Part shown: positions 40-23,391 of the stretch, one piece after another
Position numbering within the stretch: position 1 is the first letter of the stretch
How the letters are laid out: each line of letters starts with the position of its first letter
Source: a virus
Virus record (IMG/VR): IMGVR_UViG_3300025583_000011
Location: 1 to 23,438 of that record
Length of the DNA stretch: 23,438 nucleotides
Direction: 5' to 3' (one strand)
Position numbers and translations under genes: made by a program
Notes under the pieces: model-generated
Told to the model about the DNA's origin: nothing
Seen by the model: the letters and a program-made list of their open reading frames with translations, nothing else
The model's database searches: none

Positions 40-426
40 ATGGCCTCTCGATCTCCCAGCTTGACCCGCGCAGTGTCCGCCGCGATCCGAGAGGCCCAGC
101 TCGGACCGGTGGATTCGGGTGCTGCCGCCCTCGCCCGGCGGTACGCCGCCCTGATCGAGGACGCGGAACGGATCTCCCGCGAGCTCGCCGAGATCCAGGC
201 GGAGGACGACGGCCAGAGACAGGTCCTGGCCGGACTGCGGGCGGCCGTGCACGCGCAGACGGTAGCCGCGGACCTCGGACCCAAGTTGCTGGCGGCCCTG
301 GCGGCCCTCGGACTCACCCCGGCGGCCCGGGCCGCCGGGAAGGGAGGTGGCGCCGGTGGATCAGCGGCGGGCGGCGGCCGGGACGTCCTCGCCGAACTCC
401 GCGCGAAGCGTGGCAAGTCCGGGTGA
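40..426 (+). CDS. Terminase small subunit (probable)
   Basis: A 128-residue protein from ATG 40; a GTG at position 1 is in frame, but ATG 40 follows a G-rich stretch at 28-32 and better fits the gene. The middle (about residues 25-80) is helical and charged (ARRYAALIEDAERI, LAEIQAEDDGQ), followed by an Ala/Gly-rich tail ending in a basic AKRGKSG. Small terminases bind the packaging site and load DNA onto the large subunit. The call rests on size, composition and the position directly before the large terminase, since no diagnostic motif is visible. The large-subunit gene begins inside it, overlapping by about 71 bases, so the two are translationally coupled. Confidence 0.65.
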   Translation: MASRSPSLTRAVSAAIREAQLGPVDSGAAALARRYAALIEDAERISRELAEIQAEDDGQRQVLAGLRAAVHAQTVAADLGPKLLAALAALGLTPAARAAGKGGGAGGSAAGGGRDVLAELRAKRGKSG

Positions 427-2008
427 GGTCCTCGGCCGGACCGTCCCGAGGATCTGGACGCCGCCGCTGGTGCAGGGGCCGCCGGGCCCGTGCGGGTGCG
501 GATGCGCGCTGACCCCGGAGACGTCCGACGGGTTCGATCAGATCGAGTTCGCCGCGGACGTGGTGTGCCGGCCCTTCGATCCCTGGCAGCGATGGCTGGT
601 CATCCACGCCGGGGAACTGCTCCCGGACGGGTCGTTGCGGTTCCGCCACGTCCTGGTCGTCGTCGCCCGGCAGAACGGCAAGAGCGAGGTCCCGATCGTC
701 CTCGGTTTGTTCTGGATCTTCGTCGATGAAGTGCCGTGCATGCTCTGGACGTCCACCCAGCTGAAGTACGCCGACGCGGCCCTGGCCAAGGCCGAGCGGT
801 ACGCCCGGGCGTCGCCCCGGCTGCGGGATCTCATCCCTACCAAGAAGTGGAAGCGGGTCATCCTCGGGTCGTCGGTCCTGCCCCTGGCCGACAGCGAGTG
901 GTGGACCGCCACCGCGAACGAGGAGGGCGGCCGGTCGATGACGACGCAGCGCCTGGTGCAGGACGAACTGCGGGAGCACCGCGACTACGCCGCGTGGGGC
1001 GCGGCCGTGCCGACGCTGCGACCGTCCGGCCAGGCGTGGCACCTGTCGAACGCGGGCGAAGATCATTCCGTGGTGTTGAACGAGCAGCAGGACGCCGCCC
1101 GCAAGGCCATCGCGGACGGGACGACCGCTGAGGTGGACACGTTCCTGGCGGAGTGGTCGTCGGTGTCCGGGGCCGACCCGATGGACCTCGGATCGCTGGC
1201 CCAGTCCAACCCGGGCCTCGGCTACCACGGGCCGTCGGCCAGGGACTTGCTCGGCGAGGCCAGGACCGCCGTCGCGGCCGGGGGGCAGGCCCTGGCCAAG
1301 TTCCGGACCGAGAAGATGTGCATCCGGGTCCGGCACCTGGACGCCGCCGTAGACGAGGACTCCTGGACGGCGTGCGGGGTGGACGAGCAGACCTGGGAGG
1401 CGACCGGATCCCTCGCCGCGTACCGCAGGCGGGTGGTCGGGTGCCTGGACGTGTCCCCGGACGGCCTACACGCCACGCTCGCCGCCGCGGCCGTGGTCGA
1501 GGGCGAGGTGGCGCGGGTAGAGATCGTGCAGGCGTGGTCCGGGGCCGGGGCGATGGAGCAACTGCGAGCCGCGCTCCCCGCGTGGATCAAGAAGGTGCGG
1601 CCGAAAGCGCTCGGGTGGTTCCCGGCGGGCCCGGCCGCGGCCCTGGTCACCGAACTCGGCAAGCGCCGGGACGGACAGGGCCGGTCCCCGCTAGAGCGGG
1701 TGATGCGCCGCAAGCCGGAGCCGATCAAGGCGGACGTGTCCGCCGTGTGCATGGCCTTCTCGGCCGAGGTGCTCGCACGGCGGGTCGCCCATCCCGAAGA
1801 CGATCTGCTCACGGCGCACGTGGTCGGATCCGAGAAGCTGCGGATGGGCGACACGTGGCGGTTCTCCCGCCGCGGCGAGGGGCACTGCGATGCCGCGTAC
1901 GCCGCGGCCGGGGCCGTGCACCTGGCGCGGATGCTCCCGACCCCGGTCCGCGGCGGGATCGTCCTGCCGTCCTCCGCGGCGCCCGACGGCGACCGTAGCG
2001 CCACCTGA
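356..2008 (+). CDS. Terminase large subunit (packaging ATPase/nuclease)
   Basis: This is the motor that pumps DNA into the prohead and cuts it. I chose GTG 356 because GGGAAGGGAGG lies 8-9 bases upstream; GTG 347 and GTG 410 are in-frame alternatives. An N-terminal GCGCALTP...PWQRWL segment typical of actinophage terminases is followed by Walker A ARQNGKS (codons from 665, about residue 104) and Walker B LVQDE (about 954-968). The C-terminal nuclease half shows acidic positions in CLDVSPDG (about 1443-1466) and HCDAAYAAAG (about 1882-1911). At about 550 residues it has the usual length and appears complete. It is followed by the portal frame after a 24-base gap. Confidence is high. Confidence 0.95.
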   Translation: MDQRRAAAGTSSPNSARSVASPGEVLGRTVPRIWTPPLVQGPPGPCGCGCALTPETSDGFDQIEFAADVVCRPFDPWQRWLVIHAGELLPDGSLRFRHVLVVVARQNGKSEVPIVLGLFWIFVDEVPCMLWTSTQLKYADAALAKAERYARASPRLRDLIPTKKWKRVILGSSVLPLADSEWWTATANEEGGRSMTTQRLVQDELREHRDYAAWGAAVPTLRPSGQAWHLSNAGEDHSVVLNEQQDAARKAIADGTTAEVDTFLAEWSSVSGADPMDLGSLAQSNPGLGYHGPSARDLLGEARTAVAAGGQALAKFRTEKMCIRVRHLDAAVDEDSWTACGVDEQTWEATGSLAAYRRRVVGCLDVSPDGLHATLAAAAVVEGEVARVEIVQAWSGAGAMEQLRAALPAWIKKVRPKALGWFPAGPAAALVTELGKRRDGQGRSPLERVMRRKPEPIKADVSAVCMAFSAEVLARRVAHPEDDLLTAHVVGSEKLRMGDTWRFSRRGEGHCDAAYAAAGAVHLARMLPTPVRGGIVLPSSAAPDGDRSAT

Positions 2009-2032: not shown

Positions 2033-5000
2033 GTGGGTTTGCTGCGCTGGTGGCGTACGGGTCGCCGCTCGTCCGCCAAGGACGTCGTCCGGCGCGACAC
2101 CCACGACTCCCGCCGCCGCCCCGGGCCCGCCCCGGACCGCGAGGACTTCTCCCTCTTGCAGGGGCCGTGGTCCCCGGGCGGGATCTGGGGCGGCACCCAC
2201 GCCGTAGCGCTCGCCGCACGGATCAGTCGCGAGGAGGCCCTGGAGGTCCCGGCCGTGATCCGGGGCAGAAACCTGATCTGTGGCACCGTGTCGTCGTTGC
2301 CGCTGCGGACGATCGACGCGCAGAATCGGCCGGTCGCTAGCCGGCTGCTCCAGCAGATCGACCCGACGGCGGGGAACTGCGTGACGCTGTCGCAGACGCT
2401 GGAGGATCTGATCTTCGAGGCGTCCGCGCTCTGGAAGATCACCGAATTCGGGTGGGACGGCTACCCGGTGGCCGCCGAGCACGTGGCCACGGAGCGCTGG
2501 TCGACGAACCCGCCCGAGGGCGTCATGCGGCAGCTCCCGTCCGGGGTGTTCCCCGGCGGGTCGATATGGATCGACGGAGTCGAGGTCGGCTCCGCCGAGG
2601 TGATCCGGTTCGATTCGCCGTTGCCGCCGCTGCTGGTCCACGGGGCGCGGGCGATCCGCCGGGCCCGGCGGATCGAGAAGACGGCCGAGACGTACGCCGA
2701 GGACCCGCGGGCCCTCGGCTACTTCCAGCCCGACGAGGACACCCCGTTCGACGGGGACGACGACCAGGACGCCGAGGTCCGGAAGATCCTCGACGCGTGG
2801 GCCGAGGCCCGCCGCACCCGCGCGACCGGCTATGTCCCCGGGTGGCTGAAGTACCAGGAGGCGGGCAGCCTGTCACCGGCCGAACTCCAGCTTGGCCAGC
2901 TCCAGCAGCGCGCGGCATTGGACGTCGTCAATCTCATGGGCCTGGACGCCGAGGACTTCGGGATCAACGTCACGTCCAGGACGTACCAGAACGCCGTCGA
3001 GCGCCGCCTAGACAAGATCAACGAGGTATACGGCCCGTATATGCGCGCCATTACGGACCGGCTATCCCTCGGCGACGTGACCAAGCGCGGACAGGTCGTC
3101 CATTTCGTCCTGGACGACTTCCTGAAAGCGGATCCGAAGGCCCGCGCGGAGATAAACCGCACCTATATCGACGCGAGGGTTCTCGACGTCGACGAGGTCC
3201 GGGCGCGGGAGGGATATCCGCGCCGTACGACGCCGATCGCCGCTGCGCCGTCCGCCGCGCCGCAGGATGCCCCGCGGGACGGTGCCGGGGCCGTGCAGCA
3301 GGAGGCCGCCACCATGTCGCGTCACCTCGGAGTCGTGAGCTTCTCCGGCGACGACACCGCCCGCCAGACGATCACGTTCTCCGCCGCCGACTTCCGGGCC
3401 TCGGCGGCCACCCGTACCGTGTCCGGGACCTTGGTCCCGTACGGGCCGGTGGGGGTGAACCGACGGGGCAAGTGGCGGTTCGCGCCCGGGTCGATCTACT
3501 GGACGAAGTCCGCGGTGTCCCGGGTGAAGCTGAACCGGGAGCACGACCGCGTGGGGAGCCTGCTCGGCTCGGCCCGGGTCGTCCGCGGCAGTGACTCCGG
3601 CGTCGACGCCGAGTTCAAGGTCGGCCGTCACCCGGCCGGGGACGAAGCGCTCCACCTGGCCGAGGACGAGATCCTCGACGGGCTGTCCGCCGAGGTCGAG
3701 GTGGAGGAGTGGCGGCCGGACCCGGTCGAGGACGACGTGATCCTCGTGACCAGGGCACTGCTCACCGGGGCGGCACTAACCGCCACCCCGGGATTCACCG
3801 ACGCGCGGCTCACCCACGTGGCCGCGTCCCAACACGCTGGAGGGCGAGACATGCACTGCACGATGTGCGGCCACGATCACGCGCCGGGCACGCCGTGCGT
3901 GCAGACCGGCGGCGGCAACGTCCAGATGTCCGGTGGCCAGGGCGGCCAGCAGGGTGTCCAGGGCGGCGGCCAGGGCGGCCAGCAGGGTGTCCAGGGCGGC
4001 GGCCAGGGTGGCCAGCAGGGTGTCCAGGGCGGCGGCCAGGGTGGCCAGCAGGGCGGCGGCAACGTCCAGATGTCCGGCGGCCAGGGCGGCCTGCAGGGTG
4101 GCCAGCAGGGCGGCCAGGGCAGCACGGAGGAACGCTTCACCAGGGCCGTGGAGGCATTCACGGCCGCGGTCGAGGCCCTCGGCCAGGTGCCGCAGGAGCA
4201 GCGGCAGATCGTCCCGGCCGGGCGGGCCCGGGTCCGGGAGCCGCTGGTCTACTCCCTCGACGGCCGGGGCAATTCGTACGTCCGCGACGCCTGGGAGGTG
4301 AAGCGCGGCGCGTACGGGTCGCCCGCGACCGCCGAAGCCTTCGCCAGGCTGAAGAAGTACGAGGAGCAGACGCAGGACCTCGCCCGGGTCTCGTTCAATG
4401 CCCGTTTGGACGCGCAGATGTTCGCGAACGCGGGCAACACCACCGATCAGGCCCAGATCATCCCGCCCGGGTACCGGCCCGACCTGTACGTCGGACAGAT
4501 CCCCCAGGGAAGGCCGTTGTTCGAGGCCATGTCGCGCGGATCCATCGCCAACGCGACCCCGTTCAAGGTCCCGGTGTGGGTGGGCAGTTCGGGCCTGTCC
4601 GGCACCAACTCCGAGGGGACCGGGCCCAGCACGGGGACGATCACCGACCACACCTACCGGACCGTCACCCCCACCGCGCAGAGCGGGGAGTTCATCATCA
4701 CGAGGGAGCTGGTCGACTCCGCGAACCCTGCGATCGACCAGATCGCGCTCGCCGCGATGCGCGAGGAGTACTCCCAGGACACCGAGGGGGTCATTTCGAC
4801 CGCGCTCGCCGCGGCGACCGACGACGGGACCCCGACCCAGGGCACCGCGTCGGCCACCTCGACCGAGGGGTGCTACGTCTACGTCGTGACCGGCACCGGG
4901 AACGACCTGGCCGCCGAGGGGATCAGGTTCGTTGAGGCGGAGTTTCCTTTCCATCGCTTCACGGTCGCTCCCGACCGGTGCCTGCTGTCCTCGCAGGGCT

Positions 5001-5332
5001 GGGGCGGCCTGATCCGGTCCGTGGACGACGTCGGTCGCCCTCTCTTCCCCTTCACCGGGGCGCAGAACGGCTACGGCACGGTCGGCCAGGCCGCGCAGAC
5101 CATGAACGTCGACGGCTTGCCCGGGATGCCCGCGTGGGCCCTGGACACCGATTACGACGACGTCGTGATGTTCAACCACGTGGACGCCTGGGCCTGGGAG
5201 TCCCCCTTGCTGTCGTTCCGGTTCGAGGAGAAGCAGGGCCCGGAGAACATCTGCCTCAACATCTGGGGGTACTTCGCCTTCCAGATCCTGCGTTACCCGG
5301 GCATCCACGTCATCCGCTACGCGGCGGCCTGA
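2033..5332 (+). CDS. Portal-prohead protease-major capsid fusion frame
   Basis: One 1099-codon frame (GTG 2033, no stop until 5330) holds three head proteins. Residues 1-427 read as an HK97-type portal (VIRGRNLICGTVSSLPLR, GINVTSRTYQNAVERRL). Residues 428-606 read as an HK97-type S78 prohead protease, with VSGTLVPYGPV, candidate catalytic His504 in LNREHD and Ser552 in DGLSAEV; the usual acidic residue near LTGAALTATPGF is not obvious. From Met607 comes CTMCGHDHAPGTPC, a Gln/Gly-rich repeat, then an HK97-fold capsid protein (about 690-1099). Each junction has an in-frame ATG with a strong ribosome site (3314 and 3851). Nested translation could therefore give a protease-capsid of 672 residues and a capsid of 493. 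Otherwise it is a self-cleaving polyprotein. Protease-capsid fusions are known in small actinophages; the three-way fusion is the odd part. Confidence 0.9.
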   Translation: MGLLRWWRTGRRSSAKDVVRRDTHDSRRRPGPAPDREDFSLLQGPWSPGGIWGGTHAVALAARISREEALEVPAVIRGRNLICGTVSSLPLRTIDAQNRPVASRLLQQIDPTAGNCVTLSQTLEDLIFEASALWKITEFGWDGYPVAAEHVATERWSTNPPEGVMRQLPSGVFPGGSIWIDGVEVGSAEVIRFDSPLPPLLVHGARAIRRARRIEKTAETYAEDPRALGYFQPDEDTPFDGDDDQDAEVRKILDAWAEARRTRATGYVPGWLKYQEAGSLSPAELQLGQLQQRAALDVVNLMGLDAEDFGINVTSRTYQNAVERRLDKINEVYGPYMRAITDRLSLGDVTKRGQVVHFVLDDFLKADPKARAEINRTYIDARVLDVDEVRAREGYPRRTTPIAAAPSAAPQDAPRDGAGAVQQEAATMSRHLGVVSFSGDDTARQTITFSAADFRASAATRTVSGTLVPYGPVGVNRRGKWRFAPGSIYWTKSAVSRVKLNREHDRVGSLLGSARVVRGSDSGVDAEFKVGRHPAGDEALHLAEDEILDGLSAEVEVEEWRPDPVEDDVILVTRALLTGAALTATPGFTDARLTHVAASQHAGGRDMHCTMCGHDHAPGTPCVQTGGGNVQMSGGQGGQQGVQGGGQGGQQGVQGGGQGGQQGVQGGGQGGQQGGGNVQMSGGQGGLQGGQQGGQGSTEERFTRAVEAFTAAVEALGQVPQEQRQIVPAGRARVREPLVYSLDGRGNSYVRDAWEVKRGAYGSPATAEAFARLKKYEEQTQDLARVSFNARLDAQMFANAGNTTDQAQIIPPGYRPDLYVGQIPQGRPLFEAMSRGSIANATPFKVPVWVGSSGLSGTNSEGTGPSTGTITDHTYRTVTPTAQSGEFIITRELVDSANPAIDQIALAAMREEYSQDTEGVISTALAAATDDGTPTQGTASATSTEGCYVYVVTGTGNDLAAEGIRFVEAEFPFHRFTVAPDRCLLSSQGWGGLIRSVDDVGRPLFPFTGAQNGYGTVGQAAQTMNVDGLPGMPAWALDTDYDDVVMFNHVDAWAWESPLLSFRFEEKQGPENICLNIWGYFAFQILRYPGIHVIRYAAA
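3299..3316 (+). promoter_or_regulatory. Internal ribosome site and ATG for prohead protease
   Basis: GCAGGAGG at about 3298-3305 lies 8 bases before an in-frame ATG at 3314 (MSRHLGVVSF). The start falls exactly where portal-like sequence ends and protease-like sequence begins, after an Ala/Pro/Gln linker. This is the spacing of a genuine start, so an independent protease-capsid product is likely. Expression is inferred. Confidence 0.6.
3839..3853 (+). promoter_or_regulatory. Internal ribosome site and ATG for major capsid
   Basis: GGAGG at 3839-3843 lies 7 bases before an in-frame ATG at 3851 (MHCTMCGHDH). It sits just after the protease C-terminus (TDARLTHVAASQHAGGRD). Strong initiation here would supply capsid subunits in excess of portal, matching the stoichiometry a phage head needs. 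This is inferred from sequence only. Confidence 0.6.
3910..4113 (+). repeat. Tandem 33-base repeats coding for Gln/Gly linker
   Basis: Three consecutive 33-base units start at 3953, 3986 and 4019, each beginning GGTGTCCAGGGCGG and encoding an 11-residue GVQGGGQGGQQ unit with only C/T wobble differences. The block is bracketed by two copies of a GGCGGCAACGTCCAGATGTC segment (about 3911 and 4057), encoding GGNVQMSGGQGG. The result is a flexible, probably disordered linker of about 70 residues between the Cys/His N-terminus and the capsid fold. Copy number probably varies among relatives by slippage. Confidence 0.9.
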
Positions 5333-8996: not shown

Positions 8997-11726
8997 GTGG
9001 GCGCCACGATCAGGATTGCCGTCCTGGCCCAGACGGCCAAGGCCAGGGCCGGGGTCAAGGGCTTGGGCGAGGACCTCGGCGGCCTGGGCACCCGGGCCAA
9101 GGACACCGGGTCGAAGGTCAAAGCGTCCTTCGCGAAGATCGGCACGGCGGCCAAGGCCGGGGCCGCTACGGCCGGACTGGCCGCCGGATCCGCCCTGGCC
9201 GCCGGGGCTCTGACCGGATTCCAGCAGGAGAAGCTTCAGGCGAAGCTCGGCGTGCAGCTCGGCCTCGGCAAGGCCGAGGCGGAGAAGCTCGGGAAGACCA
9301 CCGGGAAGATCTACGCCGCCGGGTTCGGCGAGGATCTCGGCCAGGTCAACCAAGCCGTGAAAAGCGTTTTCCAGAACATCGGGAAAGGCGGCACGGCCTG
9401 GACGGAGGACATCACCAAGAAGGTCCTCACCGTCTCCGACGCTTTCGACCAGGACCTGGGAAAGACCACGGCCGCGGTCGGCCAGCTCATGAAAACCGGC
9501 CTCGCCAAGAACGCGACCGAGGCCCTGGACGTCATCACCGTCGGTTTCCAGTCCGGGGCCGACAAGGCCGAGGACCTCCTGGACACGTACAACGAGTACG
9601 GGACCCAATTCCGGGAGCTCGGTGTTACGGGCAAGCAAGCTACGGGACTGTTATCGCAAGGGCTGAAAGCCGGTGCCCGGGATGCGGATAAGGTCGCGGA
9701 CGCGCTGAAAGAGTTCACGATCCGTGCGAAGGACGGATCGAAAACCACGGCCGAGGGATTCAAGGCCCTCGGCCTATCCGGAAAAACAATGGCCGCCGAC
9801 ATCGCCAAGGGCGGGCCCAAGGCCAACGCAGCGCTGGACAAGACCCTTGACCGCCTACGGGCCGTGAAGGACCCCGTGAAGCGGTCCCAGATCGCCGTCA
9901 AGCTGTTCGGCACCCAGGCCGAGGACCTCGGGGACGCCCTGTACGCGCTGGACCCGTCCCAGGCCGTGGAGAGCCTCGGGAAGGTCGGCGGGGCGGCGAA
10001 GGACGCCGTCTCGTCGATGGACGAGACCCAGGCCCAGAAGATCGAGCGATTCAAGCGGAAGGTCACGCAGGGCTTCACCGACGCCGCGGCATCGGCGATC
10101 GAATTCGGGGAGACGAATCAGAAGTGGCTCATGCCGATCGCCGGGTCCGTGGCCGCCGTCGGCGGGGCGATCCTGGTCGCCAACGCGGCGACGAAGGCGT
10201 GGCAGGCGACACAGATAGTGATCAAGGGAGTCACGGCCACGTGGACGGCCGCGCAATGGCTCCTGAACGCAGCGCTCACGGCGAACCCGATCGGGATCGT
10301 GATCGTTCTCGTCGCTGCATTCGTGGCAGCGATCGTCATTGCCTGGAAGAAATCCGACACATTCCGTGAGGTAGTGACGAATGCTTTCAGGAAGGTAGGC
10401 GAGGGTGCGGGGTGGCTCTGGGACAAGATAGTAGCCGCGAAAGACGGAATAGTCGGGGCCTGGCATACGACGCAAACCAAGTTCTCCGACGGGTGGAATT
10501 GGATAGACAGGAAGGTAATTAAGCCTTTCAACCGTGGCATCGACGATATGCAAGTCGGGTTCAAGCGCGGTACCGATGCCATAGGGAAGGGATGGAACGA
10601 AATCCAGGAAGCGGCGAAGAAACCCGTCCGATTCACCGTGAACACGGTGATCGGCGGCCTGGTGTCGCAATTCAACAAGATCTCCGGGAAGGTCGGGATA
10701 CCGGCCCTGCCGGTGCCGCACGTGAACTTCGCCCGGGGCGGGAGGATCTACGGGCCCGGCACCGGGACCTCCGACGACGTCCCGATCCGCGCGAGCGCGG
10801 GGGAGTGGATCATCCGGGAGAAGGCGGCCAAGAAGTTGGGGCCGCGGCTCATGGAGAAGATCAACAACGCGGACCGGCTCGACGTGGCCGGGGACATCGG
10901 GACCGCGGTGGTCCGCCGGTATGCGTCCGGCGGGGAGATCGGCGGGGCCGCGGCCGGGCGGGTGGCGGCCACCCGGGGGTGGCTGCCCTCGGTGGATCCG
11001 CTGCCGTACGTGTGGGGCGGGGTCGGCCCCCGGGGGTACGACTGCTCCGGTCTGGTGGGGGAGGTGTGGGCCCGCCTGACGGGGCGCTCGTCGTACCGGC
11101 GGTACATGACCACCTCGACGATCCTGTCCGACCCGCGGGGCCTCGGCCTGGCGCCGGGGCCCGGCCTGTACTCGATCGGGGTGAGCTCGACGCACACCGC
11201 CGGGAACCTGGCCGGCCTCGGATTCGAGGCCGCGAGCAGCAGGTCCGGGATCAAGATCGGCGGGGCGGCCAAGTCACCCGCGTCCTTCCCGAGGGTCTAC
11301 CACCTGGCGTCGCTGGGGACCGCCGGGGCGGACGCCGGTGGGGACTCGGGGTGGTGGCCGCTGGGGTGGGTCAAGTCCGCCGCCAAGGCCGCGACGAAGA
11401 GCCTGCTCGGACCGTGGCTGCGCACGCTCGGGGACATGGGGATCGTCGGAGACCTCGGGATCGGCGCCACCAAGAAGATCATGGGCGGGATCTTCGACAC
11501 CGGGGGGTACCTCCAGCCCGGGTACACCCTCGCGTACAACGGGACCGGCCGCCCGGAGAAGGTGATCCCGCCGGGCGGGGACACGCCGCCGGTCCGCATC
11601 ACCCTCACGTTCGAGGCCTCCGGTGACCCGCTGGTCGACGTGATGTTCGAGGAGCTCAAGAAGCGGATCCGGGTCGAGGGAGGAGGAGACGTGCAGGTTG
11701 CGCTCGGGACGGGTGATGCACGGTGA
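8997..11726 (+). CDS. Tape measure protein with NlpC/P60-like domain
   Basis: A 909-residue protein from GTG 8997, with GGAGG at 8985-8989. Residues 1-380 are helical, Ala/Lys/Gly-rich tape-measure sequence. A membrane-like segment (NPIGIVIVLVAAFVAAIVIAW) lies near 430-450. Residues about 660-780 contain LPYVWGGVGPRGYDCSGLVGEVW with Cys683 and, 50 residues on, STHTAGNL with His733, an NlpC/P60-type cysteine peptidase pattern seen in many actinophage tape measures. It sets tail length and probably opens the cell wall during DNA entry. By the usual 1.5 angstrom per residue the tail would be roughly 130 nm. The 10380-10650 stretch uses more AT-ending codons than its surroundings. Its stop overlaps the next GTG. 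Confidence 0.93.
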   Translation: MGATIRIAVLAQTAKARAGVKGLGEDLGGLGTRAKDTGSKVKASFAKIGTAAKAGAATAGLAAGSALAAGALTGFQQEKLQAKLGVQLGLGKAEAEKLGKTTGKIYAAGFGEDLGQVNQAVKSVFQNIGKGGTAWTEDITKKVLTVSDAFDQDLGKTTAAVGQLMKTGLAKNATEALDVITVGFQSGADKAEDLLDTYNEYGTQFRELGVTGKQATGLLSQGLKAGARDADKVADALKEFTIRAKDGSKTTAEGFKALGLSGKTMAADIAKGGPKANAALDKTLDRLRAVKDPVKRSQIAVKLFGTQAEDLGDALYALDPSQAVESLGKVGGAAKDAVSSMDETQAQKIERFKRKVTQGFTDAAASAIEFGETNQKWLMPIAGSVAAVGGAILVANAATKAWQATQIVIKGVTATWTAAQWLLNAALTANPIGIVIVLVAAFVAAIVIAWKKSDTFREVVTNAFRKVGEGAGWLWDKIVAAKDGIVGAWHTTQTKFSDGWNWIDRKVIKPFNRGIDDMQVGFKRGTDAIGKGWNEIQEAAKKPVRFTVNTVIGGLVSQFNKISGKVGIPALPVPHVNFARGGRIYGPGTGTSDDVPIRASAGEWIIREKAAKKLGPRLMEKINNADRLDVAGDIGTAVVRRYASGGEIGGAAAGRVAATRGWLPSVDPLPYVWGGVGPRGYDCSGLVGEVWARLTGRSSYRRYMTTSTILSDPRGLGLAPGPGLYSIGVSSTHTAGNLAGLGFEAASSRSGIKIGGAAKSPASFPRVYHLASLGTAGADAGGDSGWWPLGWVKSAAKAATKSLLGPWLRTLGDMGIVGDLGIGATKKIMGGIFDTGGYLQPGYTLAYNGTGRPEKVIPPGGDTPPVRITLTFEASGDPLVDVMFEELKKRIRVEGGGDVQVALGTGDAR

Positions 11727-14700
11727 CCTTCTCCGTCGGCCTGGAGCTCTTCGTGGACGGGGCGTGGGCGGACATCACCGACGACCTGTCCGACGACGGC
11801 GTGCAGATCACCCGGGGACGGTCCGCCGAGGGGAGCCGCGTCACCCCGTCCCGGATGACGTGCCAGGTGCGGAACAACGCCGGGACCTACAGCCCGAGGA
11901 ACCCGCGCTCGTCGTTGTTCGGGAAGATCGGCCGGAACACCCCGGTCAGGTTCTGGGTGGAGACCGGGTCCGTGCGCCTGGTCCAGGACCAGGGCACCCA
12001 GTGGCTGTGCGACGACTCGGCGGGCCTGTCGATCACGGGTGACATCGACCTACGGGTCGACGTCGCGCCGAGGACCTGGCGGCCGGAGTCGACGACCTTC
12101 CTGGGCCTGGTCAAGGGGGGCGCGTACTGGCTGACCCTGCACCCGTCCGGGCAGGTCACGATCGGGTGGAACGACGGCGCCGACGATCAGGCCCTCACCT
12201 CGACGGTGCCGGTCCCGGGCGGGATCACCGGGCGGAAGGCCGTCCGCGCGACGCTGGACGTCGACACCGGCGACGGGACGGCCGCGGCGACCTTCTACGC
12301 CGCCGACACCCTGACGGGTAGCTGGACCCAGGTCGGGGCCGTGGTGGAGCTGGGGGAGACCACCGCCATCGCGGACTCGGCGGAGACCCTCGGTACCTAC
12401 CTCGACGTCGCGGCCGAGGTGTTCGGCCTGTCGGTGCTGGATGGTATCGGCGGGACCACGCGGGCCTCCGTCGACTGGACGGCCGTGTCTTCCGGGGCCA
12501 CCACGTACACCGACGGACAGTCCAACGTGTGGAGCCCCTACGGGGACGCCGTCGTCACCGCCAGGCGGTACCGGTTCGTCGGCGGGGTGGCCGCGTGGCC
12601 GACCAGGTGGGGACTGAAGGGCGCGCCGACGGCCCGGACCCTGATCGAGGCGGGCGGGATCCTGCGACGCCTGGGACAGGGCGCCAGCCCCGTGCAGTCG
12701 GCCCTGCGCCGGGGCTGCGACGCGCTTCCCTACGCCGCGGCGTACTGGCCGCTGGAGGACGGCGCCAAGGCCGCCGCGTTCCTCGGCACCGCCGCGGCCC
12801 CGCCGGGCCGGCTACTGGGCGCCGTCACCCCGGCCGGGTACTCGGACTTCGACGGGTCCGGACCGGTGCCTACCATCGGCGACGGCGGGCGCCTGGCGTT
12901 CACGGTCCCGCCCTACGCCAACTCCGGCGAGGTGGCCGTCCGGTTCCTTTTGGCGGTCCCCGAGGACGGGATCACCTCCGACGCCATGCTGCTCAAGGCG
13001 TGGACGAGCGGGACCCTCGGGTGGGCGGAGCTGTGGCTCACCACCACCGGTGGCCTCTACACCAAGCTCTACAGCCACCTCGGCGTCCTCGGCCACACCA
13101 CGTCCACCGTCGCCTTCGCCCTCAACGGCCAGCGGGTGCGCTGCTCGCTGGAACTGGTGCAGGACGGCGCGGACGTCGACATCACGATGGCCACGCTGGC
13201 CCCCGGGGCGTCGTCGGCCGCGGTGGGCACCGACACCAAGAGCGGACTCACCCTCGGCGCGGTCACCGGCATCACGGTCAACTTCTCCCAGGCGGACCTC
13301 GGCGGCACCGCGGTCGGCCACCTCACCGTCGAGCGGCAGGTCGTCTCGCTGTTCGGGCTGGCCGAGCAGATGACCGCCTACGCGGGCGAGCGCGCCGATA
13401 CCCGGCTCTTGCGCCTGGCCGCGGAGAACGACATCGCGCTCGGCGTGGTCGGGGCCGGGGCCGGGGCCGAGCGGGTCGGCACGCAGGGGATCGGCACCCT
13501 CGCGAACCTGCTCGGCGAGGCCGCCGACGCCGACGGTGGCCTCTTGTTCGAGGCCCGCAACGACGACGCGCTGCGGTACCGGTCGCTGGAGTCCCTGTGG
13601 GGCCAGGACCCCGCCGTGACGATCACCTACGTCGACAACCTCCTGAACCCGCTCGATCCGGTGGACGACGACTCCGCGCTTGCGAACCGGGTGACGGTCA
13701 CCAGGGCGGGCGGCGGGTCGTACACCGCCGAGGACGCCACGGGGCCTCTCGGGACGGCGGCCCCGCCGGACGGGGTCGGGGTGTACGAGTCGTCGGTCAC
13801 GCTGTCCCTGGCGGGCGATGCCCAGGCCGAGCAGCAGGCCGGGTGGCGGCTCCACCTCGGGACGGTGGACGAAGCGAGGTGGCCGAAGGTCGGCCTCGAC
13901 TTGGCTCACCCGGTGTTCCTGGCCGACCAGGACCTCACCGGCCAGGTCCTGGCCCTGGACCTCGGAGACCGGCTCGACGTCACCGACATCCCGGAGTGGC
14001 TCCCGCCGGGCCCGGTGTCGCTGCTCGTCGTCGGCTGCACCGAGACGATCACCCCACCGGCCAAGGGCGAGCGCGGGAGGTCCTCGGCGGATCCACCGTT
14101 CCATCACAAGATCGTTTTCACCTGCGTTCCGGCCGGGCCGTACCGGATCGGCACGTTCGTGGCGTCCGGGTACGAGACGTCGACCACGGGGACGGCCGGG
14201 GACCCGGACACCGTGCTGATGTCCGACGACGGCACCGGGGAAACCAACGGCACGGGCTGGGACTCCGGGAACTGGACGGCCGACGGGACCGGGTCCGGCG
14301 GGGGAGCGACGTACGAGTCGGAGGCGCTGCGCCTGGCGTCCGGCACCGCCGGGGGGTACGCGAGCGCCGCGCGCACGACGCGCACCGCGAACATCTCGGA
14401 CCCCACCACCGTCGACATCTCCGGCACGTGGTCGCCGGACGCAAACGAGCCGTACGGCGCGGCCTTCATCAGAGGCAACATGTCCGGGGCCGACCTGGTC
14501 GACGGTTACTTGCTGTCACTGGGCAAGGACGCTACGGCGTACGTCTACCAGATCACCGACTACGGCGGGACCGGGACGGTGGAGCTGGGATCCTTCTCGT
14601 TCTCCGCGTCGTCCGGGAGCACGTACGGATTCCGGCTCCGCGCCGAGGGGACCCGGATCATGGCCCGGCTCTGGTCCGGCGCCGAGGGGTACGACCCGGT

Positions 14701-16435
14701 GGACGACGCCGCGACGTACCCGTGGGACGTCGACGAGACGGACGCGACCTGGTCATCGGGGCCGGTCGGGGTGACCGTCGGCGCCGGGAACGCCGCCGTG
14801 CAGCACGCCATCACCTTCGACGACATCGTGGTGACCGCGGCGGACGGCACGGCGGAGTCCACCGAGACGACGCTCACGCCGATCGCGGCGGGGCCGTCGG
14901 ACACCCGCTACGGCACGGGCGGGTCCGTGCTGGACGACGCCCTGACGATCGACGGGACGTCCGCGGACGTCCTGGTCGTCTACGGGCCCGCCTGGACCGA
15001 GGACGAGGACGACCTGCCGCTGGACCTGGTGATCGGCGGCGAGCGGGTGACCTGTACCGCCGTGGGGTCGCCGAGCAGCGGCGTGCAGACCCTCACCCTC
15101 ACCCGGGCGGTGAGCGGGATCCACCTCGCCCACGCGGCCGGGACCGCGGTGGACCTGGCAGACCCGTCGTACTGGGGCGCCCGCCCACTGGGCGGGGACC
15201 TGTACGTGGACTCCTCCGGCTCGACGTCCGGGGACACCGGTGGCGGCGGCGGGGACCCGGTCGACACCGAGACCCCGAACACGGTCCGGATCGGAGCCGA
15301 CACGTACCCGCTGTCCGGGGTCGACCCGGGCACCGAGGGCGGGTGGGGCGGCGACCCGGCCTACCCCGGGGACCGCGGCGTGGACCAGCTGATCGTCTAC
15401 ACCGACGCCTACGGAAGCGAGACGGACACCAACCAATGGGGCGCCGAATGCCCCGCCGACGACGATCTGATCGTCAACTCCGTGAACGACAGGGAAGCGA
15501 CGCAGGATCTGGACGGCACGGCGATCCCGGACCCCGGGTACGTGCTCTCCGGGCACAACGCGGCCCGCCAGTGGCTGCTCGCGCACGCGACCGTGGGCGC
15601 CCAGGCAGAGTTGATCTACGTAGCGCCCGGCGGTGACCCGGGCGGCGGCGAGGGCGGCGGCGGCGAGGGCGGCGGGGAGATCGGCCCCTACCCGTCAAAG
15701 ATGATCTCCATCTACAAAATGATCTTCTCGTCGACCGGGGTCGACCTGGACACCCTGGACCCGCCCATCGGCGAGGTCAGGTTGGCCTTCGCCAACGGCT
15801 CCCCCCTCGGCCTGGTCGGCTACGGCGCCGAGGGCGAGTCCTCCCTCAAGGCCGCCGTCGCCAGCCAGCGAGCGCTCGGCGTCCGGATCGTCGTCAGCAT
15901 CGGCGGGGCCGGCTACACCGTGAGCCTGTCGAACACGTCCGCGTTCGTCTCCCAGTTCCAGGCCATCGTGACCGACCTCGGAGGATGCGACGGAATCGAC
16001 TGGGACATCGAATCTTCGGCATTCAACCGGTCCAACGTCGTGACGATTTCCAAGGCCCTCAAGAACATTTACGGGTCGGAGTTCGCAATCACCATGGCTC
16101 CGAACGGATCGAATGTCGGCACGTACCTTCCGGCAGCGGTGGAACTACACCAGAACAATGCCCTCGACAACTACGGGCAGCAATTCTACGATGCCCCGGT
16201 TTCACTGGCAGCAGCCAAGGGCAGGATCGCCGAGGCTATCAACGCCGGTATTCCCGCGTCGAAACTCAGCGTCGGCATGATGATTGCCAACGACTCGAGT
16301 CATTGGACCAACACACAATGCGCCGACTACATGGCCGACATCAAGGCCACGTACGGCGTGACCAAGGCGTACCTGTGGGAATCCCAGCGCGCAGGGACGT
16401 CCCAATGGATCAGCGACATGAATAATATTCTGTGA
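11723..16435 (+). CDS. Giant tail-tip protein with C-terminal GH18 domain
   Basis: A 1570-residue protein, GTG 11723 overlapping the tape-measure stop. The N-terminus is the actinophage minor-tail pattern (VQITRGRSAEGSRVTPSR, NPRSSLFGKIGRNTPVRF). LamG-like beta sandwiches follow at about 100-250 and 330-540, then baseplate-like sequence, further lectin-like segments, and a TNQWGAE...GYVLSGH module at about 1215-1300. A Gly/Glu linker leads to a GH18 domain (1327-1570) with SIGG (1392-1395) and the catalytic DxxDxDxE as D1423-G-I-D1426-W-D1428-I-E1430. GH18 enzymes cut beta-1,4 GlcNAc bonds (chitin, some peptidoglycan or glycans). It probably combines distal-tail, receptor-binding and depolymerase roles that other siphophages spread over several genes. 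The GH18 part is less GC-rich, suggesting later acquisition. The substrate is unknown. Confidence 0.88.
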   Translation: MTFSVGLELFVDGAWADITDDLSDDGVQITRGRSAEGSRVTPSRMTCQVRNNAGTYSPRNPRSSLFGKIGRNTPVRFWVETGSVRLVQDQGTQWLCDDSAGLSITGDIDLRVDVAPRTWRPESTTFLGLVKGGAYWLTLHPSGQVTIGWNDGADDQALTSTVPVPGGITGRKAVRATLDVDTGDGTAAATFYAADTLTGSWTQVGAVVELGETTAIADSAETLGTYLDVAAEVFGLSVLDGIGGTTRASVDWTAVSSGATTYTDGQSNVWSPYGDAVVTARRYRFVGGVAAWPTRWGLKGAPTARTLIEAGGILRRLGQGASPVQSALRRGCDALPYAAAYWPLEDGAKAAAFLGTAAAPPGRLLGAVTPAGYSDFDGSGPVPTIGDGGRLAFTVPPYANSGEVAVRFLLAVPEDGITSDAMLLKAWTSGTLGWAELWLTTTGGLYTKLYSHLGVLGHTTSTVAFALNGQRVRCSLELVQDGADVDITMATLAPGASSAAVGTDTKSGLTLGAVTGITVNFSQADLGGTAVGHLTVERQVVSLFGLAEQMTAYAGERADTRLLRLAAENDIALGVVGAGAGAERVGTQGIGTLANLLGEAADADGGLLFEARNDDALRYRSLESLWGQDPAVTITYVDNLLNPLDPVDDDSALANRVTVTRAGGGSYTAEDATGPLGTAAPPDGVGVYESSVTLSLAGDAQAEQQAGWRLHLGTVDEARWPKVGLDLAHPVFLADQDLTGQVLALDLGDRLDVTDIPEWLPPGPVSLLVVGCTETITPPAKGERGRSSADPPFHHKIVFTCVPAGPYRIGTFVASGYETSTTGTAGDPDTVLMSDDGTGETNGTGWDSGNWTADGTGSGGGATYESEALRLASGTAGGYASAARTTRTANISDPTTVDISGTWSPDANEPYGAAFIRGNMSGADLVDGYLLSLGKDATAYVYQITDYGGTGTVELGSFSFSASSGSTYGFRLRAEGTRIMARLWSGAEGYDPVDDAATYPWDVDETDATWSSGPVGVTVGAGNAAVQHAITFDDIVVTAADGTAESTETTLTPIAAGPSDTRYGTGGSVLDDALTIDGTSADVLVVYGPAWTEDEDDLPLDLVIGGERVTCTAVGSPSSGVQTLTLTRAVSGIHLAHAAGTAVDLADPSYWGARPLGGDLYVDSSGSTSGDTGGGGGDPVDTETPNTVRIGADTYPLSGVDPGTEGGWGGDPAYPGDRGVDQLIVYTDAYGSETDTNQWGAECPADDDLIVNSVNDREATQDLDGTAIPDPGYVLSGHNAARQWLLAHATVGAQAELIYVAPGGDPGGGEGGGGEGGGEIGPYPSKMISIYKMIFSSTGVDLDTLDPPIGEVRLAFANGSPLGLVGYGAEGESSLKAAVASQRALGVRIVVSIGGAGYTVSLSNTSAFVSQFQAIVTDLGGCDGIDWDIESSAFNRSNVVTISKALKNIYGSEFAITMAPNGSNVGTYLPAAVELHQNNALDNYGQQFYDAPVSLAAAKGRIAEAINAGIPASKLSVGMMIANDSSHWTNTQCADYMADIKATYGVTKAYLWESQRAGTSQWISDMNNIL

Positions 16436-21419: not shown

Positions 21420-22177
21420 CACCGACCCCCCGGGCCGCCGGGAAGCGCAGCCGCGCCGACCTGGGGCTACGCCCACCACTGTCCCGGTCACGGCGGATCG
21501 AACCCGGCCAAGGCGGATGCACCCTGCACTGGGGAGGCCCACCGGCGTCGATCCGCACCCACGCGGACTGCGAACGAACCTGGCGCGGATGGCAGACCTT
21601 CCACACGAAGGTCCGCGGCTGGGTCGACATCGCCTACACGGCCGGTGTCTGCCAGCACGGGTACGTGCTGGCAGGACGCGGATACGGCGTCCGTACCGCG
21701 GCCCAAGGCACGAACCGCGGCAACGAGATCAGCTACGCCTTCTGCCACATCAACGACACCACCAACAAGCCGACCCAACAGGCCCTCGACGCGATGACCT
21801 GGCTAGTGGCCGACGCCAGGGCCCACGGCGGCGCAGGGACCCGCGTGTGGCCGCACAAGGCGTGGCACTCCACCGCCTGTCCTGGGAACACCCTCGCCGC
21901 GCTCGCGGCCCACCTCGACCGGGAACCGATCGCACCGGCCCACCTACGGAAGGACGACGACATGCCTACGGCACGAGAGATCGCGGACGCCATCCTGGAC
22001 ACCCCGGTCCCCGGCGGAGACGTCGGGACCGACGAGCAGCCCCTCACCTTCCGGTGGATGCTCCGCCGGGACTACCACGCGGACTTCGCCGCGCTCCCGC
22101 TACTCGGAGAGATCAAGGCCCTGCAGGACCAGATCCTGACGGAGCTGCGGGCGCTCGCAGAGAGGACCACCCGATGA
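21416..22177 (+). CDS. Endolysin: PGRP-type N-acetylmuramoyl-L-alanine amidase
   Basis: A 253-residue protein from ATG 21416 (ATGA overlap; ATG 21392 is possible). The amidase domain (about 25-170) shows CTLHWGGP with His38, the strand AYTAGVCQHGYVLAGRG and YAFCHINDTTNKPTQQAL. The final motif WPHKAWHSTACPGN supplies His147 and Cys155, giving a PGRP/Amidase_2 zinc triad (His, His, Cys). It would cleave the MurNAc-L-Ala bond of peptidoglycan to free progeny. There is no signal peptide, so it depends on a holin. The C-terminal 71 residues from Met182 have their own ribosome site and could be made separately as a wall-binding or oligomerising subunit. Confidence 0.9.
   Translation: MTPTPRAAGKRSRADLGLRPPLSRSRRIEPGQGGCTLHWGGPPASIRTHADCERTWRGWQTFHTKVRGWVDIAYTAGVCQHGYVLAGRGYGVRTAAQGTNRGNEISYAFCHINDTTNKPTQQALDAMTWLVADARAHGGAGTRVWPHKAWHSTACPGNTLAALAAHLDREPIAPAHLRKDDDMPTAREIADAILDTPVPGGDVGTDEQPLTFRWMLRRDYHADFAALPLLGEIKALQDQILTELRALAERTTR
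21948..21964 (+). promoter_or_regulatory. In-frame internal start in endolysin
   Basis: GGAAGGA at 21948-21954 is seven bases before an in-frame ATG at 21962 (MPTAREIADAILDTP). The start falls at the domain boundary after the amidase. A 71-residue product would result. Several phage endolysins make such secondary C-terminal products that assemble with the full-length enzyme. Confidence 0.5.
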
Positions 22178-22623
22178 CGGACATGCAGGATCAGAGAGCG
22201 ATCGACCACCCTGCGACGAAGCACCTGCTGAGGTACTTCGCCGCCGATCATCTACCGCCCGGCCTACGCCAGGTGTCAGAGCCAATGCACGAACTCGCAA
22301 TGACCCTGGCCGAGACGCTCCCGCCCGGCCCTGAGGCCCTCACCGCACTACGCAAACTCTTGGAGGCCCAGGACTGCATCATGCTCGCCGCTCTCGACGA
22401 GACCAGCACCACCATCGGCCAGGCGGCGGACACCGCCGCCGCGGCCCCGCCGGAGCGGCGGCTGCTGAGGGATCGGCACGGGGACCTGTGGCTGACCTAC
22501 CCCGAACGACCCGGACTGCTGTGGTTCTCGGCCGATCGGGACTGTCTAGCGGTGGACGTGGAGCAGGTGGAGAAGCTGTACGGGCCGCTGCGCCAGGTCC
22601 CCTGGCCGCACTGCAACGACTGA
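22174..22623 (+). CDS. Tandem paralogue 1, 'DQRAIDHPA' protein
   Basis: A 149-residue protein from ATG 22174 (ATGA overlap with the lysin). The N-terminal module DQRAIDHPATKHLLRYF...HLPPGLRQVSEPMHELA resembles a helical family frequent in actinophage genomes. A middle helix (PEALTALRKLLEAQDCIMLAAL) and a C-terminal beta module (LLRDRHGDLWLTYPERPGLLWF, ending YGPLRQVPWPHCND) follow. It is about the same length as the next gene and very similar throughout. The function is unknown; family members are small soluble proteins often present in several copies. Confidence 0.75.
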   Translation: MTDMQDQRAIDHPATKHLLRYFAADHLPPGLRQVSEPMHELAMTLAETLPPGPEALTALRKLLEAQDCIMLAALDETSTTIGQAADTAAAAPPERRLLRDRHGDLWLTYPERPGLLWFSADRDCLAVDVEQVEKLYGPLRQVPWPHCND

Positions 22624-22632
22624 GGGGACCAG

Positions 22633-23085
22633 ATGACGGACACGCAGGATCAGAGAGCGATCGACCACCCTGCGACGAAGCACCTGCTGAGGTACTTCGT
22701 CGCCGAGCATCTACCGCCCGTCCTACGCCAGGTGTCGGAGCCGATGTGTGAGCTTGCAGTGAGCCTGGCCAAGACGCTCCCGCCCGGCCCTGAGGCCCTC
22801 GCCGCACTGCGCAAGCTCTTGGAGGCCAAGGACTGCGCCGTACGCGCCGCTCTCGACGAGGCCAACACCACCATCGGCCAGGCGACGGATACCGCCGCCG
22901 CCTGCCTGCCGGAGCGGCGGCTGCTGAGGGATCGGCACGGAGACCTGTGGCTGACCTTCCCCGAGCGGCCCGGATTGCTGTGGTTCTGGGGCGAGCAGGA
23001 CTCCAGGGCGGTGGACATGAAGCAGATAGAGGAGTTGTACGGGCCGCTGCGCCAGGTCCCCTGGCCGCACTACATCGACGACTGA
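22633..23085 (+). CDS. Tandem paralogue 2, 'DQRAIDHPA' protein
   Basis: A 150-residue protein from ATG 22633, with GAGGGG at 22622-22627. It is a full-length duplicate of the preceding gene: the first 66 bases differ at one position, and similarity continues to the common end YGPLRQVPWPH. Differences are concentrated in the helical middle (KDCAVRAALDEANTTIG) and at the residues after LLWF (WGEQDSRAVDMKQ). High DNA identity points to a recent duplication, with some divergence already in amino acids. The role is unknown. Confidence 0.75.
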   Translation: MTDTQDQRAIDHPATKHLLRYFVAEHLPPVLRQVSEPMCELAVSLAKTLPPGPEALAALRKLLEAKDCAVRAALDEANTTIGQATDTAAACLPERRLLRDRHGDLWLTFPERPGLLWFWGEQDSRAVDMKQIEELYGPLRQVPWPHYIDD

Positions 23086-23094
23086 GGGGACCAG

Positions 23095-23391
23095 ATGACG
23101 AACGCACATGATCAGAGAGCGATCGACCACCCCGCGGTCAAGCACCTGCTGAGGTACTTCACCTGCAACGACCCGAACCACTCCCTCGCCGATCCCTGGA
23201 TGACGCGCCAGGAGGGCGGGACGATCACCCTGGAATGGCCACCCGGCGGCGGGGACTACGCGCTGTGCTCGCGCGAACTGATTGAGCAGATGGTGAACAT
23301 GCACAACGAGATGATCGCCGAGCGCGACGAGAGCAAGCGCAGGTTCGACGCGCTATTCGATCGGACCGAACATCTGATCTGGCCAGGCTGA
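23095..23391 (+). CDS. Paralogue 3, shared N-terminus with different C-terminus
   Basis: A 98-residue protein from ATG 23095, preceded by the same TGAGGGGACCAG spacer as the previous paralogue. Residues 1-22 (DQRAIDHPAVKHLLRYF) match the two upstream genes. It then switches to unrelated sequence: a short region with WMTRQEGGTITLEWPPGGGDYALCSRE and a C-terminal coiled helix (LIEQMVNMHNEMIAERDESKRRFDALFDRTEHLI). It looks like a mosaic in which the common leader was joined to a new C-terminus. This is the last gene before the terminus. The function is unknown. Confidence 0.7.
   Translation: MTNAHDQRAIDHPAVKHLLRYFTCNDPNHSLADPWMTRQEGGTITLEWPPGGGDYALCSRELIEQMVNMHNEMIAERDESKRRFDALFDRTEHLIWPG

Follow-up and report, generated by a model that had tools for sequence, protein, structure and literature searches.

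How can one uninterrupted reading frame supply a phage head with proteins that it needs in very different amounts? The question is raised by a 23,438-nucleotide stretch of viral DNA (IMG/VR virus record IMGVR_UViG_3300025583_000011, positions 1 to 23,438; hereafter the window), in which positions 2033-5332 of the plus strand form one open frame of 1099 codons, from a GTG at 2033 to a TGA at 5330-5332, with 0 internal stops under translation table 11. A first-pass annotation had described this stop-free frame as carrying the portal, the prohead protease and the major capsid protein (MCP) in that order, and both its translation and its domain matches bear this out. The reading that we favor, at a probability of about 0.72, is that the frame is a series of nested genes with one stop and three predicted starts, giving products of 1099, 672 and 493 amino acids. 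The portal would always be covalently joined to the protease and the MCP, and the capsid protein of the shell would come from an inner start.

Openness alone is weak evidence for such a frame, because the DNA is 71% G+C and an antisense frame of 765 amino acids overlaps it. The domain content argues that it did not arise by chance: residues 73-394 match the Phage_portal profile (PF04860; 66.5 bits against a cut-off of 39.1, E 3e-18) and residues 424-1098 match the major head protein family PHROG 2263 (E 6e-37). The G+C content of third codon positions runs unbroken across both the portal-protease junction (0.83-0.93 over 3173-3382) and the protease-capsid junction (0.77-0.87 over 3773-3922), and a hidden frameshift is not indicated, given that the codon-position signature is continuous at both. 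The GTG at 2033 aligns with the ATG of two close homologs (L013 and L014), and these and three others (L119, L122 and L124) all have the one-frame arrangement, which supports the first junction of the window. That support matters since a missed stop or an indel, introduced by sequencing or assembly at the portal-protease junction, has in its favor that this junction of the window is known from just one metagenomic contig. An exact search of viral contigs returned no other copy of it, and a second contig, which carries the last 609 residues of the fused product in one frame at 100% identity, begins downstream of it. However, the coding signature is continuous in frame, and the same frame recurs in 56 of 95 non-redundant relatives, including five (L015, L091, L144, L155 and L162) whose records carry the names of IMG genomes and not of metagenomes. 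An artefact is thereby refuted for the family, and we consider its probability at this junction to be close to nil. Sequencing error and an alternative genetic code were both rejected, as the frame is open under the standard code, its coding signature is continuous and many relatives agree.

Nested starts at the two junctions

The boundaries that the first-pass annotation had placed at residues 427/428 and 606/607 turn out to be exactly two in-frame ATGs, at 3314-3316 and 3851-3853 respectively, each preceded by a strong Shine-Dalgarno sequence. The first of these sequences, AGGAGG at 3300-3305, lies 8 nucleotides before its ATG at a position that is conserved in relatives, and the second, GGAGGG at 3839-3844, lies 6 nucleotides before its own. 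Their computed pairing with the 16S rRNA tail amounts to -10.3 and -9.8 kcal/mol, as against -2.1 kcal/mol for the GTG of the portal. With these internal in-frame starts, each furnished with its own predicted ribosome-binding site, the locus has the sequence features of nested genes, from which both long and short products are predicted. We propose that the weak portal start would give the 1099-residue portal-protease-MCP protein, that ATG 3314 (residue 428) would give the protease or a protease-MCP protein of 672 amino acids, and that ATG 3851 (residue 607) would give the MCP alone, at 493 amino acids, thereby supplying the hundreds of copies in the shell. With no stop after the portal, each portal chain would be joined to a protease and an MCP. 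What the sequence itself shows is the open frame, its conserved nested starts, the conserved catalytic residues and the fact that evolution has kept the frame; as to the relative amounts of the products, most of the capsid protein is probably made separately.

The distribution of such starts in relatives points in the same direction. Among the in-frame ATGs of fused relatives, a Shine-Dalgarno sequence of -8 kcal/mol or stronger precedes 17/45 (38%) at the first junction and 22/53 (42%) at the second, compared with 10/412 (2%) in the domain cores (P=1e-12 and 6e-16, respectively). When the best start of each all-fused locus is considered, this threshold is reached in 34 of 50 at the first junction and 49 of 50 at the second, as against 11% of control windows, and a capsid start is present at the second junction in all 50. 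Six relatives have their MCP out of frame, and in these it has its own ATG, 73-97 nucleotides before the protease stop, with a Shine-Dalgarno sequence of -9 to -14 kcal/mol. In relatives with a split portal, the obligatory start of the protease is found at the end of the portal or slightly within it, mostly with a Shine-Dalgarno sequence. Because these starts must be used, and occupy the same places as the nested ATGs of the window, they support nested initiation. The first-pass annotation had reasoned that the ratio of portal to capsid has to be put right by either nested initiation or processing; the conserved Shine-Dalgarno sequences and starts, along with the obligatory starts of relatives, support the former. 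A sigma-70 scan of the window found no internal promoters, though its consensus may not suit the host.

The same evidence bears on the alternative that the locus encodes a polyprotein without internal initiation, i.e. a single 1099-residue product from one start, which would cut itself into portal, protease and capsid. A single open frame with an intact protease between portal and capsid is what such a polyprotein would look like, and self-cleavage of the protease-capsid fusion of PAJU2 has been proposed (cited in PMC8306868). Yet a head cannot be assembled from portal and capsid in equal numbers, conservation of the two strong nested starts far exceeds what chance would give, and the relatives with an out-of-frame MCP must initiate internally at the homologous ATG. 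A viral polyprotein in the classical sense has a single start and releases its products by proteolysis only, and 2033-5332 does not conform to this description. We therefore regard a polyprotein as highly improbable, and return to nested initiation. Here the two junctions differ in a manner that fits need, in that the start at the second is universal while that at the first is sometimes lost, the capsid being required in hundreds of copies and the protease in few. In two fused relatives, L143 and L136, the first junction lacks any in-frame start that could serve the protease, which can apparently be made there only as a fusion with the portal.

Arrangements among relatives and retention of the frame

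To survey the relatives, IMG/VR was scanned with portal, protease-capsid and whole-length profiles, which yielded 132 usable loci and, after clustering at 95% nucleotide identity, the 95 non-redundant ones. All three proteins share one frame in 50 of these, the portal and protease are fused with a separate capsid one frame over in six, and the portal is split from a fused protease and capsid in 39; none of the 95 is split at both junctions. The three-protein frame thereby extends to at least 49 virus species beyond this one. Relatives with separate genes, which the first-pass annotation had named as a potential sign against the fusion, do exist as a sister clade, but they do not refute it because more than 50 relatives keep it. 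A scan of genome contigs gave as its sole match a distant alphaproteobacterial metagenome-assembled genome with split genes. In the isolated-phage collection no record covers 80% of the fused product, and those listed carry the portal as a gene of its own.

We placed the fused and split states on a tree of the 95 relatives, obtained by a quick method under a simple model and rooted on five outgroup rows, which are of the split type and odd in composition. The state needs to change 3 times on this tree, compared with about 30 times when it is shuffled; all the early ingroup branches are fused, and the split portals fall mainly in one clade of 31. An earlier, smaller tree of 64 rows under a mixture model led to the same conclusion. 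The frame relation of portal and protease changes 13 times over 5.9 branch units within the 31-member split clade, but only twice over 20.0 units elsewhere in the ingroup (P=3e-7), i.e. about 22-fold more slowly outside the split clade than within it. The linker between R371 and F454 has 31 distinct lengths among the 56 fused loci, all of them whole codons, whereas the split loci show a 21/13/5 mixture of frames. That the lengths vary and yet remain multiples of three implies that insertions and deletions are common and that those breaking the frame are removed. Given how much more tightly the frame is held outside the split clade, the fusion of portal and protease is probably maintained by selection, and the one-frame arrangement of portal, protease and capsid appears to have been retained over a long time.

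These rates also weigh on a neutral explanation, under which the locus comprises three ordinary genes with their own starts, the missing stops are accidents and the long products are functionless by-products that the phage tolerates. Stops are rare at 71% G+C, and a start one frame over can become fused by chance; moreover, certain close relatives flip between the fused and split states (L069 and L081), and isolated phages show 4-base overlaps at the portal-protease junction. On the other hand, neutral loss of stops does not account for the much tighter hold on the frame in fused lineages despite a changing linker, nor for those fused lineages that have lost the start at the first junction, in which the fusion must supply the protease. 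Hence, we consider this explanation unlikely, albeit less so than a polyprotein.

Certain observations count against a nested series in which the portal fusion is selected. Retention of the frame could partly reflect the harm of out-of-frame portal tails rather than a benefit of the fusion; this is countered by the six relatives in which out-of-frame protease tails are tolerated. In about 8 of the 56 fused loci the first junction has a weak Shine-Dalgarno sequence or none, and a weak one at the portal is limited to the window and some relatives, with L013 and L014 having strong ones. Finally, the absence of loci split at both junctions is only a hint of a rule that the protease is always tethered to either portal or capsid, as it falls short of significance (P=0.08).

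The three domains and other features of the window

The HK97-family portal domain (2249-3214) is also recognized in structure, with the predicted model matching 3kdr (E 5e-19) and the HK97 portal 8cez. The TIGR01537 portal profile matches 23 of 23 fused members, with the window itself below the curated cut-off. By these profile and fold matches this part of the product is a member of the HK97 portal family, from which a 12-subunit ring at one vertex is predicted. It is followed by a Pro/Ala-rich linker (3215-3313), which is variable in length in the alignment of relatives and of low predicted confidence in the structure model.

By sequence profiles the protease and capsid of the window are both weak. 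The protease domain, of the S78 type (3314-3850), matches TIGR01543 at E 0.0018, under the curated cut-off, while TIGR01543 matches 23/23 of the fused members and PF04586 matches 18/23. His504 (codon 3542-3544) and Ser552 (codon 3686-3688) are invariant in all 95 relatives, and are predicted to be catalytic from their counterparts in the S78/TIGR01543 family. Three further loci (L063, L071 and L073, at about 2800-3580) were excluded from the arrangement counts. They have the same portal and capsid families, with the portal split, but a tblastn screen found no protease match in them; by eye, a very divergent protease-like His/Ser segment that retains DH and VSAE motifs lies between the two, in frame with the MCP. 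This suggests that their protease has been replaced or is diverging fast.

The MCP (3851-5332) comprises an N-terminal segment (3851-4130) and an HK97-fold core (about 4133-5329). PF05065 and TIGR01554 match 16 and 14, respectively, of the 23 fused relatives. Two structure models were made: a full-length one, with a pLDDT (predicted local distance difference test) of 60, is weak outside the portal and protease, and a second, from 64 rows and with a pLDDT of 74, was the basis for the capsid fold search. The model of residues 428-1099 matches the capsids of D3, the gene transfer agent and HK97 (E 9e-11 to 1e-8), which identifies the HK97 fold; a protease structure was absent among its top 50 matches. 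When the PDB was searched by sequence instead, portals were recognized and the capsid was missed (8eck, E 0.42). At the start of the N-terminal segment stands a Cys/His cluster (MHCTMCGHDHAPGTPC), and behind it come tandem repeats rich in Gly and Gln (33 bp x 3.7 and 66 bp x 3.0). The CxxC...C motif is kept in L013 and L014, and L016 and L027 have similar motifs; a metal-binding scaffold segment is a possible interpretation.

As for the surroundings of the frame, the gene for the large terminase subunit (347-2008, plus strand; PHROG 9, E 2e-51) lies directly upstream and tail genes lie downstream in this 23.4 kb record. Between the capsid and neck genes, an open reading frame at 5832-6698 matches PHROG 7999 (function not known) and, below threshold, Stealth_CR2; its product is possibly a glycosyl- or sugar-phosphate transferase-like protein within the structural operon. 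ARAGORN reports a tRNA-Arg(ccg) at 14601-14688, within a long tail open reading frame (11723-16435); it is probably spurious. At 22169-23160 a 459-bp tandem duplication (2.2 copies, 87%) extends over two open reading frames, both of which match PHROG 1761/5120 (function not known).

Precedents and a possible role in head assembly

The head module of phage HK97 (portal gp3, protease gp4 and MCP gp5) has these three proteins in the order seen here, and its portal and capsid folds match those of the window, but it encodes them in three separate genes. In phage lambda, the C and Nu3 genes encode two head proteins, one of them a protease, in one frame with an internal start. The window likewise has a protease-containing nested frame, but the lambda portal and capsid are separate genes, and the short nested product is the scaffold in lambda and the capsid protein here. 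Fusions of protease and capsid are familiar in small actinophages, as the first-pass annotation had noted, and have been described (PMC5513430, PMC7302621). Those with a protease-scaffold-capsid arrangement (Arthrobacter AN, Microbacterium EE, Gordonia CW/DM and Rhodococcus RRH1; NF045541) resemble the window in having an S78-type protease in frame with an HK97-fold capsid. They differ in that a separate gene, usually overlapping by 4 bases, encodes the portal, and sequence identity is about 30% or less; the NF045541 model matches 2 of 23 fused members and not the window. Actinophages also have portal-MuF and MuF-protease fusions (PMC5513430, PMC7302621), in which a portal or protease is similarly joined to a neighboring head gene, but there the partner is MuF rather than protease-capsid and the capsid lies outside the frame. 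Extension of the frame upstream through the portal is, as the same annotation had held, unusual: it is found in no record of the isolated-phage collection, and a search of open-licence papers found no description of a single frame for portal, protease and capsid. What appears to be new is the portal in the frame of the already known protease-capsid fusion.

Nested capsid starts can also be recognized in most of the isolated phages checked, which carry a gene annotated as a fusion of capsid and protease. An in-frame ATG with a Shine-Dalgarno sequence occurs at residue 160 in Decurro, 176 in Kels, 172 in MooKitty, 162 in Hadban, 265 in GMA5, 166 in Maneater, 163 in KayPaulus and 307 in Coeur; it is weaker in Atraxa and McGonagall, and among the isolated phages checked it is not evident in Emperor and EpicDab. 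We found no mention of this start in PMC5513430 or PMC7302621. In Gordonia phage EpicDab, the single gene for gp9 encodes a holin-like segment followed by protease and capsid, and contains an internal ATG (PMC9671378). It is comparable to the window in that the protease-capsid frame is extended by an upstream gene and has an internal ATG with a Shine-Dalgarno sequence where the two meet, but its upstream partner is a membrane segment and not a portal. The Gordonia phages Emperor, EpicDab and Coeur (L010 4789-5149; L114 1339-1687; L109 3449 onward) carry a membrane-like segment at the N-terminus of the protease-capsid frame. In both Emperor and EpicDab an internal ATG with a Shine-Dalgarno sequence lies at the joint between this segment and the protease. 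In-frame joining with predicted nested starts is hence a recurrent feature of small phages.

What might the link to the portal achieve? The C-terminus of the portal and the N-terminus of the MCP both face the interior of the prohead, where the protease works, and an order of portal, protease and capsid thus places the protease inside. The fusion would equip the portal ring with 12 copies each of the protease and the MCP, acting as a covalent initiator of assembly and as a carrier of the protease, which would then cut the joints of the portal-protease-MCP chain; processing of the fused product by its own protease is likely, judging from the intact catalytic residues. In phage lambda the head initiator complex consists of portal, protease and scaffold (B, C and Nu3; PMC3224144), while for HK97 contacts between the MCP scaffold domain and the portal are described, and the working hypothesis is that the portal nucleates assembly (PMC10275583). 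The covalent chain could be a linked version of an initiator of this kind, which is later cut. We advance only tentatively, at somewhat less than even odds, the fuller proposal that every portal subunit is such an initiator, with the ring carrying the proteases and the first capsid subunits, so that a single translation product would nucleate the head, bring in the protease and afterwards be cleaved, the portal being the only carrier of the protease where the inner start has been lost.

In the assembly of tailed phages and herpesviruses alike, the means by which each head acquires a single portal, and sufficient protease, is still to be explained. If the above proposal is true, a long-lived group of phages with portal, protease and capsid in one chain, in which nested ribosome-binding sites set the stoichiometry, would offer a covalent initiator made by nature. 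The arrangement further suggests that many isolated small phages with an annotated protease-capsid "fusion" have nested genes instead, with the capsid protein being made mainly alone.

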